33,976 nt of DNA from Klebsiella pneumoniae (GTDB lineage Bacteria; Pseudomonadota; Gammaproteobacteria; Pseudomonadales; Pseudohongiellaceae), in NCBI GenBank assembly GCA_945902215.1, contig CAMDML010000031.1, positions 1 to 33,976 on the forward strand, given 5' to 3'. The notes beneath the pieces were generated by a model. The model had not been told where the DNA came from. It saw only the letters and a list, made by a program, of their open reading frames with translations, and did no database searches. Both the position numbers and the translations under genes were made by a program. Within the stretch, counting starts at the first letter, position 1. The number at the start of each line of letters is the position of its first letter. This document shows positions 6,073-33,049 of this stretch, in pieces.

Positions 6073-6159
6073 CATAAATGGGGACACATAAATGGGGACA
6101 GACCACATTTAATTAATTCTTTAGTTTGAACTGAAAATTTAATGTGGTCTGTCCCCATT
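6073..6159. repeat. Inverted pair of REP elements with a 14-bp tandem duplication
   Basis: AATGGGGACAGACCACATT (6091-6109) and its exact reverse complement (6141-6159) face each other across a 31-base AT-rich spacer, giving 19-bp perfect arms. The left element is preceded by a perfect tandem duplication of CATAAATGGGGACA (6073-6086 and 6087-6100). Degenerate fragments (CCATTAAAT, TTGTCCCATTTAATT) continue to about 6195. The pair fills the space between the stop of the 6190-7644 gene and the start of the lipoprotein gene. It matches the other copies at 7.7, 8.5, 9.5 and 32.9 kb. Confidence 0.9.
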
Positions 6160-6189
6160 AAATTTTAAATTCCATTAAATTTGTCCCAT

Positions 6190-7644: not shown

Positions 7645-7693
7645 TGATCGGCTTCCTGAGCAATGGCAACGCGGGAACCGGGAGAATAAACGG

Positions 7694-7720
7694 ATAAATG
7701 GGGACAGACCACATTTAATC
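7694..7720. repeat. Single REP element abutting the RAYT stop codon
   Basis: A single copy (ATAAATGGGGACAGACCACA and onward) ends one base before the stop codon of the RAYT gene (7721-7723). It lies between that gene and the secreted-protein gene, and forms the downstream flank of the transposase. Confidence 0.9.
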
Positions 7721-8413
7721 CTAATTCGCTGTCTTGAAAGGTCTCCCTCTCCGCCCGCGGCTCGCCCTGCGCCCAAGAGTCGCGCTTAGCTCCGCCTGAA
7801 ATTGCGCACTGCCCAGTGCGGTATTTCCTGTGGTCGCCTGCCGAATCCCGGCTGTTTCGGTCGGGTCTACTCGAGCTGCCAAAAACTCCCTATACACGCA
7901 TGCCCGCTCACTTGCGGTAGCTCCCATTCCAAGGTAATGCTGGTGCGGCGTTAACATCGGATCGAACTGCTCACCACCATTCCTACCGTAACTGGACCAG
8001 GGATACTTGTCAGGATGGGTCACCATGCCCGCACGCACGGGGTTGAGCTCGATGTAGCGATAACAGGTCAGGATGTAGGATTCCTCACGGCTCAAGCAGG
8101 ACTTGAAGCGACCTTCCCACAGCGTGCCGCTCCTCTCATACGTCCTGTTGATGTACTGCGTGTGGTGCTGAGCCACCAGCTTCATCATATTGGCTGTGCT
8201 TTCCCGCTGCGCGGGCGTGATGAGCAAGTGCACATGATTGGTCATCAACACATAGGCGTGGATTGCACAGGCATGCAGGATGGCCTGCTCGGACAGGATG
8301 CGAAGGTAGTGGCGGTAATCGTCCGGCCGGAAAAAGCAGGGGCTGCGATTGTTCCCCCTGTGCATGATGTGCCAGGGAATACCGGCGATGGACAGACGCG
8401 CGCGTCTGGGCAT
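7721..8413 (-). CDS. REP-associated tyrosine transposase (RAYT, Y1/HUH family)
   Basis: The protein belongs to the IS200-like Y1 HUH endonuclease group that nicks single-stranded DNA at REP hairpins. I chose ATG 8413 because it gives the classic RAYT N-terminus MPRRARLSIAGIPWHIMHRG and follows AAGGA at a good distance; the product is 230 residues. The metal-binding HUH motif is His60-Val-His62 in MTNHVHLLIT. The likely nucleophile is Tyr120 in CYRYIELNPVRAG. WEGRFKSCL (99-107) and the basic tail ending in RRASRGRRGRPFK are also typical. All key residues are present, so it may be active. It is flanked on both sides by copies of the same REP and has no IS-type terminal repeats, which is the known arrangement of a domesticated, non-self-mobilising REP/RAYT unit. 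Confidence 0.93.
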   Translation of the reverse strand: MPRRARLSIAGIPWHIMHRGNNRSPCFFRPDDYRHYLRILSEQAILHACAIHAYVLMTNHVHLLITPAQRESTANMMKLVAQHHTQYINRTYERSGTLWEGRFKSCLSREESYILTCYRYIELNPVRAGMVTHPDKYPWSSYGRNGGEQFDPMLTPHQHYLGMGATASERACVYREFLAARVDPTETAGIRQATTGNTALGSAQFQAELSATLGRRASRGRRGRPFKTAN

Positions 8414-8474
8414 GTAGTACATCCTTGTTCTGAAGAAGATTGTTGGTTTGCAATTTAGCGGAGTTTTGGAATCT

Positions 8475-8587
8475 TGCAAAAATTAAATGTGGTCTGTCCC
8501 CATTTACATGTGCAAAAATTAAATGTGGTCTGTCCCCATTTACATGTGGTCTGTCCCCATTTACACCCCATTTACACCCATTTACAC
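8475..8587 (+). repeat. Nested tandem array of REP copies upstream of the RAYT
   Basis: Two perfect 36-bp tandem copies (8475-8510 and 8511-8546) each contain TGTGGTCTGTCCCCATTTACA. Three progressively 5'-truncated copies follow: 19 bp (8547-8565), 11 bp (8566-8576) and 10 bp (8577-8586). All five contain CCCATTTACA at or near the 3' end. The array begins about 60 bases upstream of the RAYT start and ends three bases before the stop codon of the beta-barrel gene. There is no unique spacer between units, so it is not a CRISPR array. Confidence 0.92.
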
Positions 8588-8589
8588 GC

Positions 8590-9468
8590 TCAGAAACTAT
8601 AAATGAGGCCGGTGCGAATGATGGTTACACCATAATCAATATCGGAGGTCCCTCGCGTTTCCTGCTGTTCGATGCCGATATACACCGTTCCTGCTTCACC
8701 CATTACCCGGTTGTAATCGACGGCAATGCCATGCGTACGCGCATCAATCCGGTAAGCAACCGCATGCGGGCCGAACACCGTGTCGAGAGTAATGGCTTTG
8801 GAAGCACCGGCTATCAACCCATACGGCAATCCGGTGGATACGATGTCGCCGCTGCGGAAATCATAGCGGGCGCTGAGCCAGCTCACTGCGCTCAGCTCCA
8901 GCTCGGAGTACAGCGCTAAATTCCAGGAACGCTGGTCCCAGGCGTTGCCCGGTTTCCCGGTAGTTGGCTTGGGGATGTCATGTTCGGCATCGCTGGTGGT
9001 ATGGCCCACGCTGGCATTCAGACTCAGCGTATCAGTGATGCGTTTGCCAAGCGTAATGCTGATGCCGCGATTCCAGGCGTCGCGAATATCGTTGTTGAAC
9101 GTAGCGCGACTTAAATCAGCAGCAACGGTAAGCACTGACACCCGGTCGCCGAGGCCAAACTTATGGTTGATACTCGACGCAATCCCAAGCTCAGAATTAC
9201 TCATGCCGCTGTGCTGGACAAACTGGCGCCGGGCAACAGAAGCCCCAACGATAACTCCGGTGTAGATGCCTGGCTGCCAGTGGTGACCGCCTACGGCACT
9301 TGCGCTCAAACCGGTATCGTCAAATTTATCGGAGCTCTGCTGGGCACGCGGCAAATTATCAGTGAACAGTCCCTCCATGGTGACTTCACCAAACCATTGG
9401 GCCTGGGCAACCAGTGGCGTTTGCACCAGCAGTAACAATGCAGAAAGGCGCAACACTGCATGGAACAT
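8590..9468 (-). CDS. Outer-membrane beta-barrel protein, function unknown
   Basis: The 292-residue product begins with a signal peptide (MFHAVLRLSALLLLVQTPLV, cleavage likely after AQA at residue 23). The rest consists of alternating amphipathic strands such as GISITLGKRITDTLSLNASV and WNLALYSELELSAVSWLSAR. It ends in GLIYSF; a C-terminal phenylalanine after an aromatic/hydrophobic pattern is the Bam-recognition signature of outer-membrane barrels. GAGG lies just upstream of ATG 9468. I cannot assign a ligand; an autotransporter-barrel-like or surface-structure protein is possible. Both ends of the gene touch REP repeats: the array at 8587 on the 3' side and the imperfect pair at 9497-9549 on the 5' side. 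Confidence 0.78.
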   Translation of the reverse strand: MFHAVLRLSALLLLVQTPLVAQAQWFGEVTMEGLFTDNLPRAQQSSDKFDDTGLSASAVGGHHWQPGIYTGVIVGASVARRQFVQHSGMSNSELGIASSINHKFGLGDRVSVLTVAADLSRATFNNDIRDAWNRGISITLGKRITDTLSLNASVGHTTSDAEHDIPKPTTGKPGNAWDQRSWNLALYSELELSAVSWLSARYDFRSGDIVSTGLPYGLIAGASKAITLDTVFGPHAVAYRIDARTHGIAVDYNRVMGEAGTVYIGIEQQETRGTSDIDYGVTIIRTGLIYSF

Positions 9469-9496
9469 TCACTACCTCACACAAATAAGCACACAA

Positions 9497-9549
9497 ATAG
9501 GGACAGACCACATTTAAAGCAAATTTTAAGCTAAATATAGTCTGTCCCA
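9497..9549. repeat. Imperfect inverted REP pair overlapping the 3' end of pgpA
   Basis: AGGGACAGACCACATTTA on the left faces TAAATATAGTCTGTCCC on the right. The two arms pair except for two G-to-A type differences in the right arm. The right arm (9533-9549) lies inside the pgpA reading frame and includes its stop codon, so the repeat has been absorbed into coding sequence. Confidence 0.85.
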
Positions 9550-11013: not shown

Positions 11014-11496
11014 TCACGGTTTTGCTAATTCAGTTGTGCGTAACTGCCGCGCGGTTTTGTCGAGTACTCCATTGATGTACTTATGACTCTCGGCAGAACC
11101 GTATTTCTTCGCGAGCTCGACGTACTCGTTGATGACAACCTTGTACGGCACATCTATGCGCTGGCTAAGTTCAAACATGCCCAGTTGCAGAATACCGGTT
11201 TCGATCGGATCGAGCTGGCTGGCCGGTCGGTCGAGGTGTGCCGCGTACAGCGCATTCAATTCGGCAGCGTGCTCAGTGATATGGGACAGCGCATGATGGA
11301 AAAAATCCCAGTCAGTCTTTTTGCCGTTATCAGCGCGGAATTCTGCTTCTATTACTTCTGCTTCGCTACCGGAGAGTTTCCATTGGTACAGCGCTTGCAC
11401 CAGGAGGTCGCGTGCGCGTTTACGGTGGGATATCGGAATCTTCCCTCTGTCTTTATTGCTTCCTTTATTGCTTCCTTTATTACCTTCGTCTGCCAT
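11014..11496 (-). CDS. nusB: Transcription antitermination factor NusB
   Basis: NusB binds boxA RNA with NusE (S10) in rRNA antitermination. The 160-residue protein has the core start SHRKRARDLLVQALYQWKLS, the middle section LDPIETGILQLGMFELSQ and the closing VPYKVVINEYVELAKKYGS followed by HKYINGVLDKTA. The first 20 or so residues are an added hydrophilic tail (GNKGSNKGSNKDRGK) encoded by a 12-bp tandem repeat. The start lies 11 bases after the ribH stop, with no strong ribosome site of its own, suggesting coupling to ribH. Confidence 0.96.
   Translation of the reverse strand: MADEGNKGSNKGSNKDRGKIPISHRKRARDLLVQALYQWKLSGSEAEVIEAEFRADNGKKTDWDFFHHALSHITEHAAELNALYAAHLDRPASQLDPIETGILQLGMFELSQRIDVPYKVVINEYVELAKKYGSAESHKYINGVLDKTARQLRTTELAKP
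11451..11484. repeat. 12-bp tandem repeat in the nusB N-terminal coding region
   Basis: CTTTATTGCTTC occurs twice in a row (11451-11462 and 11463-11474) and a third, diverged copy follows. The unit length is a multiple of three, so changes in copy number would alter the number of GNKGS-like residues without shifting the nusB frame. Confidence 0.8.
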
Positions 11497-31459: not shown

Positions 31460-31465
31460 CTGAAT

Positions 31466-31510
31466 GGGGTCAGACCACTTTTGCGCCTTCTGCAAAAGTG
31501 CTCTGACCCC
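31466..31510. repeat. REP-like hairpin of a second subfamily
   Basis: GGGGTCAGACCACTTTTGC (31466-31484) and GCAAAAGTGCTCTGACCCC (31492-31510) pair with one mismatch across a seven-base loop. It shares the CAGACCAC core with the main REP family but has GGGGT instead of GGGGA and a different inner half. It lies seven bases after the PYROXD2-like stop and ends 15 bases before the next start, with no T tract, so it is not a canonical terminator. Confidence 0.85.
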
Positions 31511-32892: not shown

Positions 32893-32925
32893 GGGATTTG
32901 TTTCCTCTTTATATGGGCATTTAAA

Positions 32926-32984
32926 TGGGGACAGACCACGTTTATTCTCGATCGGTGTGTGCAAATAAACGTGGTCTGTCCCCA
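32926..32984. repeat. Inverted REP pair with perfect 21-bp arms in a divergent promoter region
   Basis: The left arm (32926-32946, beginning TGGGGACAGACCACG) is the exact reverse complement of the right arm (32964-32984), with a 17-base loop. It occupies much of the 157-base gap between two divergently transcribed genes. These copies carry CGTTTATT where the copies at 6-9 kb carry CATTTAA, and both arms share the change, showing that the arms have evolved together. Confidence 0.93.
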
Positions 32985-33049
32985 ATTAGTGTGCCGGGAT
33001 GATACAAGCCCGGCGCGACTGCGACAAATGCTTGTTGTATGATCCGGCC

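Follow-up and report, generated by a model that had tools for sequence, protein, structure and literature searches.

Nested, one-sided ladders of terminal-repeat copies beside Y1 HUH transposase genes of the TIRYT type

How do copies of one repeat come to differ in length while all closing at the same point? The question is raised by an array at positions 8475 to 8586 of the 33,976-nucleotide stretch of DNA analyzed here (the window), where a single sequence end is present five times, in copies of 34 to 36, 34 to 36, 19 to 21, 11, and 10 bp. CCCATTTACA is the common close of all five copies; it occurs five times within 88 bp, against a base-composition expectation of 0.05 for the whole window on both strands. 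Any single tandem duplication resembles a 5'-truncated copy with a common 3' end. The telling features are that several copies of different lengths close at one end, and that other loci have this end in the corresponding position.

The array and its surroundings

The first copy (8475 to 8508, plus strand, like the other four) comprises a full right terminal inverted repeat (TIR) and 14 nt of inner flank; the second (8509 to 8544) consists of TG followed by 34 bp identical to the first. The third step, TGTGGTCTGTCCCCATTTACA, spans 8545 to 8565 and has 21 bp, or 19 bp as first counted (8547 to 8565), depending on whether the ambiguous TG in front of it is included. The fourth, CCCCATTTACA (8566 to 8576), has 11 bp, and the fifth, CCCATTTACA itself (8577 to 8586), has 10 bp. 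Here the array stops; CGC follows at 8587 to 8589, then TCA at 8590 to 8592, which is the stop codon of a minus-strand ORF (8590 to 9468). An earlier reading of the sequence alone had described nested copies with one 3' end, stopping three bases before a neighboring stop codon. Both statements are confirmed: exact 36-mers lie at 8475 to 8510 and 8511 to 8546, followed by copies of 19, 11, and 10 bp. A 3' end common to all copies does exist, but it is TTTACA, and the TG that closes each 36-mer falls beyond it. An assembly artifact, also raised in that reading, is improbable as a general cause, because ladders are found in single-contig genomes as well (L247 in G112, L333 in G218, and L366 in G416).

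A spurious plus-strand ORF (8440 to 8919) reads the array as a repeated peptide, KIKCGLSPFTCAKIKCGLSPFTCGLSPFT; in annotation, false ORFs of this kind can turn such arrays into runs of a short peptide (CGLSPFT). A decayed inverted pair of CTGTCCC repeats (9494 to 9548) lies 3' of the array, and a 12-bp tandem repeat at 11451 to 11481 lies in frame near the start of a minus-strand ORF (11014 to 11496), where it reads GSNKGSNK.

The array adjoins a minus-strand gene (7721 to 8413, with the conserved MPR as its start) for a Y1 HUH transposase of the TIRYT type. The protein matches the Pfam family Y1_Tnp ("Transposase IS200 like") with an E value of 5.1e-12, and H63 and H65 of the HxH motif and the catalytic Y123 are invariant in an alignment with 41 relatives. 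A model of the protein has three C-terminal helices (170 to 216); a profile search for HTH families, made because TnpAY1 subclass 2.1 has an HTH-like extension at the C terminus, gave none at an E value of 1e-3. The inverted repeats on both sides of the gene have the sequence GGGGACAG, which fits GGGGWSAS. The left TIR (7687 to 7717, minus strand; core GGTCTGTCCCCATTTA at 7695 to 7710) has 25 bp in common with the right one (ATTAAATGTGGTCTGTCCCCATTTA) and carries no strict ladder. Because a second, inverted copy of the repeat stands on the other side of the gene, we read the array as the right TIR of an element with the gene inside it. This element is probably a TIRtron, in which a Y1 HUH gene lies between GGGGWSAS-type TIRs.

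TIRtrons are described as Y1 genes between GGGGWSAS inverted repeats, with members that are dispersed and also occur as dimers (Di Nocera et al. 2013, PMC3733652; PMC6006769; both as far as accessible). The window gene has the same arrangement, and members of its family are likewise dispersed in the genome. According to the accessible part of PMC6006769, TIRYTs probably correspond to TnpAY1 subclass 2.1, beside whose genes REP-like sequences are not found. The TIR motif and the residues of the guide region are indirect signs that suggest this subclass for the window protein.

The sequence-only reading had seen REP copies next to a RAYT gene. A Y1 HUH gene does adjoin the array, but the repeat is a TIRYT-type TIR rather than a GTAG REP, so that RAYT action on REP hairpins, cited there as established, does not carry over directly. 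We rejected the canonical GTAG REP/RAYT reading. The window transposase scores 76.1 bits against the NCBIfam model REP_Tyr_transpos, just below the curated cutoff of 80, and the GTAG-contact residues W94, Q95, E100, H101, and R104 (numbered as in the accessible part of PMC6006769) are partly changed: W and R are kept, whereas Q has become E, E has become S, and H has become C, as judged from a weak alignment with 4er8 (E value, 0.1). GTGG does occur inside the window repeat, not clearly at the foot of a hairpin. REPtrons and RAYTs (E. coli TnpAREP, Pseudomonas REPINs) thus resemble the window in having a Y1 HUH enzyme beside inverted repeats, and differ from it in the repeat and in the ladder counts given below for E. 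coli. The IS200/IS605 elements (TnpA Y1) are of the same catalytic fold family and have terminal hairpins with a fixed place of cleavage (PMC6006769 and PMC8266576, as far as accessible); unlike them, the window element has a class 2 YxxxNP tyrosine motif, long inverted repeats, and ladders.

Ladders in the same genome and in relatives

The genome that contains the window was searched at zero and three mismatches, and 22 distinct ends had both the core and sufficient flank. A strict ladder was present on the outer side of 9 of the 22 and on the inner side of none. The sequence-only reading had named random ends on both sides, elsewhere in the genome, as the contrary outcome; when copy ends were tabulated here and in relatives, they proved one-sided and close to the element terminus. 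Within the window, a short two-TIR element has a one-step ladder at its right end (6073 to 6104, minus strand), with TGTCCCCATTTATG twice in succession and then ATC. The opposite end of this element (6146 to 6185, plus strand) has a degenerate, staircase-like outer flank that is not strict and is not among the nine; a further short two-TIR element of the family (32922 to 32988, no strand assigned) is without a strict ladder.

The terminal bases vary by locus, being ATTTACA in the array, ATTTATG at 6073 to 6104, ATTTATC at C20 (both element ends), ATTTTTG at C50:11047, TTTGTCC at C50:7108, and AATTATTC at C1:87660 and its paralog at 88661. Because they differ from locus to locus, the ladder steps are copies of the sequence at their own locus. 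This genome has a second TIRYT gene (C48:1823-2494), 42% identical to that of the window; its repeat is a different one, CTGACCCCTTTGATC, and it also has a ladder (L240). An inverted pair of GGGGTCAG-type repeats at 31461 to 31509 of the window (CTGACCC at 31467 to 31473, minus strand, and at 31503 to 31509, plus strand) probably represents the other repeat family of this genome.

A pattern scan of 84,980 species gave matches in several proteobacterial groups. The scan required a second CCCATT, and its 49 stretches are therefore ascertained; 20 come from one metagenome-assembled genome (MAG; prefix REBR01), and at least five show no ladder by eye (L094, L097, L098, L122, and L124). Since the scan itself demanded the pattern, relatives were picked by protein alone. 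The ladder rates reported here are taken from the 106 protein-picked ends described next and the 22 same-genome ends; the join statistics and the locus-by-locus ladder readings rest largely on the ascertained scan loci, the window's genome (G000), and G460.

In a protein search with the window transposase, 122 of the 369 genomes in the class had a match with an E value of 1e-30 or better. We took 88 transposase genes, 29 of them at loci L245 to L273 and 59 picked from a longer match list for their greater length and score; they are not all independent, with two or three per genome in some cases. Their 176 flanks comprised 68 without a CTG[AT]CCC core within 300 bp, 2 with too little DNA, and 106 that were analyzed. 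Among these 106, the outer side bears a strict, exact tandem duplication in 26 and the inner side in 1; of 1,025 control windows further out, 6 have one. The difference between outer sides and controls gave a Fisher P value of 5e-23, uncorrected for shared genomes. Counted by gene, 65 of the 88 have a TIR core, and 20 of these show a ladder. An earlier, looser count on 29 of the 88 genes had given 9 of 36 outer sides, 0 of 36 inner sides, and 5 of 360 controls. The one-sided, fixed-end pattern first noted in the window is a general one, and it goes with this transposase family.

The MAG G460 was chosen for its frequent scan matches and sampled via all listed exact repeats; direct repeats of length 9 or more were found there on 39 of 68 outer sides and 4 of 62 inner sides, and in 0 and 1 of 66 control windows. 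Short elements of G460 (L176, L178, L183, L185, L187, L194, L196, L197, L199, and L201) also bear the same mirror-image outer tail on both ends. These tails reach 28 nt and can include a further repeat copy; they look like the result of copying one end onto the other by way of the hairpin. Mirror tails of at least 7 nt occur at 18 of 25 elements in G460 (9.5% of 600 cross pairs) and at 2 of 8 in the window's genome (1.8% of 56 cross pairs); they are absent outside these two genomes (1 of 36, versus 4.6% of 1,260 cross pairs).

Exact-pattern searches for the element matched 10 of 95 relative genomes and 5 of 369 genomes of the class, and such rarity indicates that the repeat sequence changes fast. 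A search for the orthologous locus by the neighboring gene met relatives only 24 to 46% identical in the genus, and no empty site of the window element was found by this route. In a Pseudomonas strain comparison, 5 of 76 genomes matched, the query genome included; no empty site was found among the 76, and no other genome aligned across the whole 1.4 kb. A plasmid search returned 16 records, all below 60% identity.

Step ends, joins, and alternative explanations

The position of the common end can be compared with the element terminus in G416, a one-contig genome with five near-identical TIRtron copies that have the same ends and different flanks. The TIRtron moves as a unit with defined ends, as seen for this relative rather than for the window copy. 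Termini were placed by comparing junctions with element-free copies of the same flanks. The left terminus, AATATAAAGGGG, lies 8 nt outside CCCC (two unambiguous junctions), and the right terminus, CCCCTTTATATT, uncertain by one base, lies 7 to 8 nt outside; the same comparison in Thiohalocapsa sp. ML1 places the terminus 9 nt outside CCCC, at a C/T step. When first copies in 104 flanks were allowed to end anywhere from -6 to +60, 20 of the 30 events had that end between +6 and +11. On these comparisons, the ladder end lies at or within a few nucleotides of the element terminus, about 8 nt outside CCCC. The fixed boundary claimed for the window array holds in this form, on the G416 junctions, the first-copy ends, and the same-genome ends. 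Counting against a fixed cut site, the common end is spread over 3 to 12 nt in the 106-end sample, and the ladder end of L366, which is 2 to 3 nt inside the terminus, speaks against an exact match to the cut site.

Some paralogs differ in their number of steps. L356 and L366 of G416, alike in the left flank and not in the right, have 0 and 1 steps, the additional step of L366 being 14 bp at the left end. L112:2899 and L112:3185 of Thiohalocapsa sp. ML1 have one and three steps; their outermost step and flank are alike, and the extra steps therefore adjoin the full repeat. In the window's genome, C1:87660 and 88661 have two and one steps. Such differences may reflect a gain of steps, or possibly a loss. 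At L112 (2650 to 3700), a host segment of about 100 bp is present on either side of the element, and larger element-bearing blocks recur, as if longer duplications, too, break at the element end. At L369 and L370 (G416 C1:46000-58500 and 81000-92500), TIRtron copies lie within long arrays of ~291-bp repeats that resemble a repeat-rich coding gene, and inverted, truncated transposase sequence is found at some right flanks.

Overlap at unfilled joins averages 0.93 nt, versus 0.77 nt at random joins, and 1 to 3 extra bases are present at 20 of 60 joins; the steps appear to be joined without microhomology beyond chance. A general C/T or C/A rule was rejected, with CT at the join in 11 of 60 cases and one base inside it in 15 of 60, and C as the last common base in 26 of 60. 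The joins of the window array can all be read as C/A, but the A is part of the common tail, so they provide no independent evidence.

The sequence-only reading had offered nicking or hairpin-driven slippage. In slippage without a transposase, a polymerase that has passed the terminal hairpin would fall back and re-copy, ending at the foot, and we consider this unlikely as the explanation. It is consistent with pairing between the tail and the inner side, which exceeds that of shuffled tails (stem of at least 6 in 28%, versus 7.9%), and with a stem of at least 5 in 14 of the 26 ladders, in 11 of which the ladder ends 0 to 3 nt past the foot. The other 12 laddered ends have no stem of 5, however, and other hairpins with stems of at least 9 have a ladder at 1 of 146 feet. 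In E. coli MG1655, none of 21 matches to the REP pattern, taken from two 50-kb stretches, had a ladder on either side; at least one of the 21 (L364, minus strand, 6047) does not look REP-like. Because the overlap is near random, extra bases are present, and other hairpins hardly have ladders, breaks made by an enzyme are favored over slippage; slippage alone has become less likely, and nicking is something that we infer rather than observe.

Repeated insertion at the same end, whether of element-end fragments from elsewhere or of one-ended transposition products, is doubtful. One-ended transposition by HUH enzymes is expected to give one constant and one variable end, as in the ladders. Nested REPIN insertions beside REPINs are also reported, in the accessible part of PMC3116915. 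Against insertion, the copies carry the terminal bases of their own locus (ATTTATG, ATTTATC, ATTTTTG, and TTTGTCC) and were therefore made in place. Ordinary tandem repetition or decay, by chance duplication or by full-length copies losing 5' parts, is very improbable: full-length copies do exist (the two 36-mers of the array), and REPINs are known to form tandem clusters together with their flanks (PMC3116915, as far as accessible), but one common end on one side is not expected from it, controls and inner sides are nearly free of such duplications, first-copy ends are concentrated, and the earlier statement that random decay does not give this pattern is thereby supported.

Proposed duplication at the terminus and its meaning

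On balance, we favor serial tandem duplications in which one breakpoint is the terminus, the presumed cut site of the transposase, and the joins form without microhomology. The staircase would consist of duplications running from a breakpoint a, at varying positions inside the repeat, to a breakpoint b, at or near the terminus. This b would lie about 8 nt outside CCCC, close to where a weak terminal hairpin has its foot. The transposase would cleave an exposed single strand at the element terminus; the element end would then carry a 3'-OH, and the 5' end of the flank would be bound to the protein. Next, the 3'-OH would be linked to a 5' end within the same repeat, either on the sister strand or once the repeat had been re-copied locally. 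With each join, the array would gain one 5'-truncated copy, placed directly after the full repeat and ahead of the older copies. The full repeat would set the cutting site, and hence every new step would end alike; breakpoint a may be a second, less specific break or the start of re-copying inside the repeat. Judged from the compared loci, b is most likely the place where the transposase cleaves, and its distance from the repeat would determine that place.

We infer the transposase as the cutter, the events on each strand, and the order in which steps were added. Steps that copy their own local bases, lie on one side, and are specific to the family support duplication linked to the transposase. 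Several observations speak against a transposase cut: a strict ladder is absent at 80 of 106 ends; the best transposase match in the ladder-rich G460, a genome that may be incomplete, is 25% identical; and the ladder-bearing G463 to G466, G468, and G469, several of them Pseudomonas, have weak transposase matches only, in genomes that may also be incomplete.

Among related phenomena, tandem clusters of whole REPINs with flanks (PMC3116915, including its Figure S7), tandem REP clusters with flanking DNA (PMC3733652), and a hypothesis of RAYT-driven array dynamics (PMC2817692) are on record in the accessible parts of these papers. TnpAREP enzymes cleave single-stranded DNA 5' or 3' of the REP at C/T, one of them also at C/A (PMC8266576, as far as accessible). 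A search of the literature found no published TIRYT biochemistry in its searchable portion. Nested one-sided ladders are unmentioned in the accessible text of PMC3733652 and PMC6006769, and the string "truncat" occurs 0 times in that of PMC3733652; no description was found in the searchable literature, outside which many subscription papers lie, in agreement with the sequence-only reading, which knew of none. The element type is already known; within the searchable literature, nested one-sided end ladders are the new part.

We put at about even the chance that TIRYT transposases repeatedly cut their own element ends and rejoin them in place. The ends would then hold an ordered record of past cleavage that marks the cut position across bacteria with differing repeats, and would represent an unrecognized route by which ends multiply. 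For many enzymes together, the ladders predict cleavage some 8 nt outside CCCC, which is testable with oligonucleotides, and they indicate that transposon ends can grow in place, on one side.
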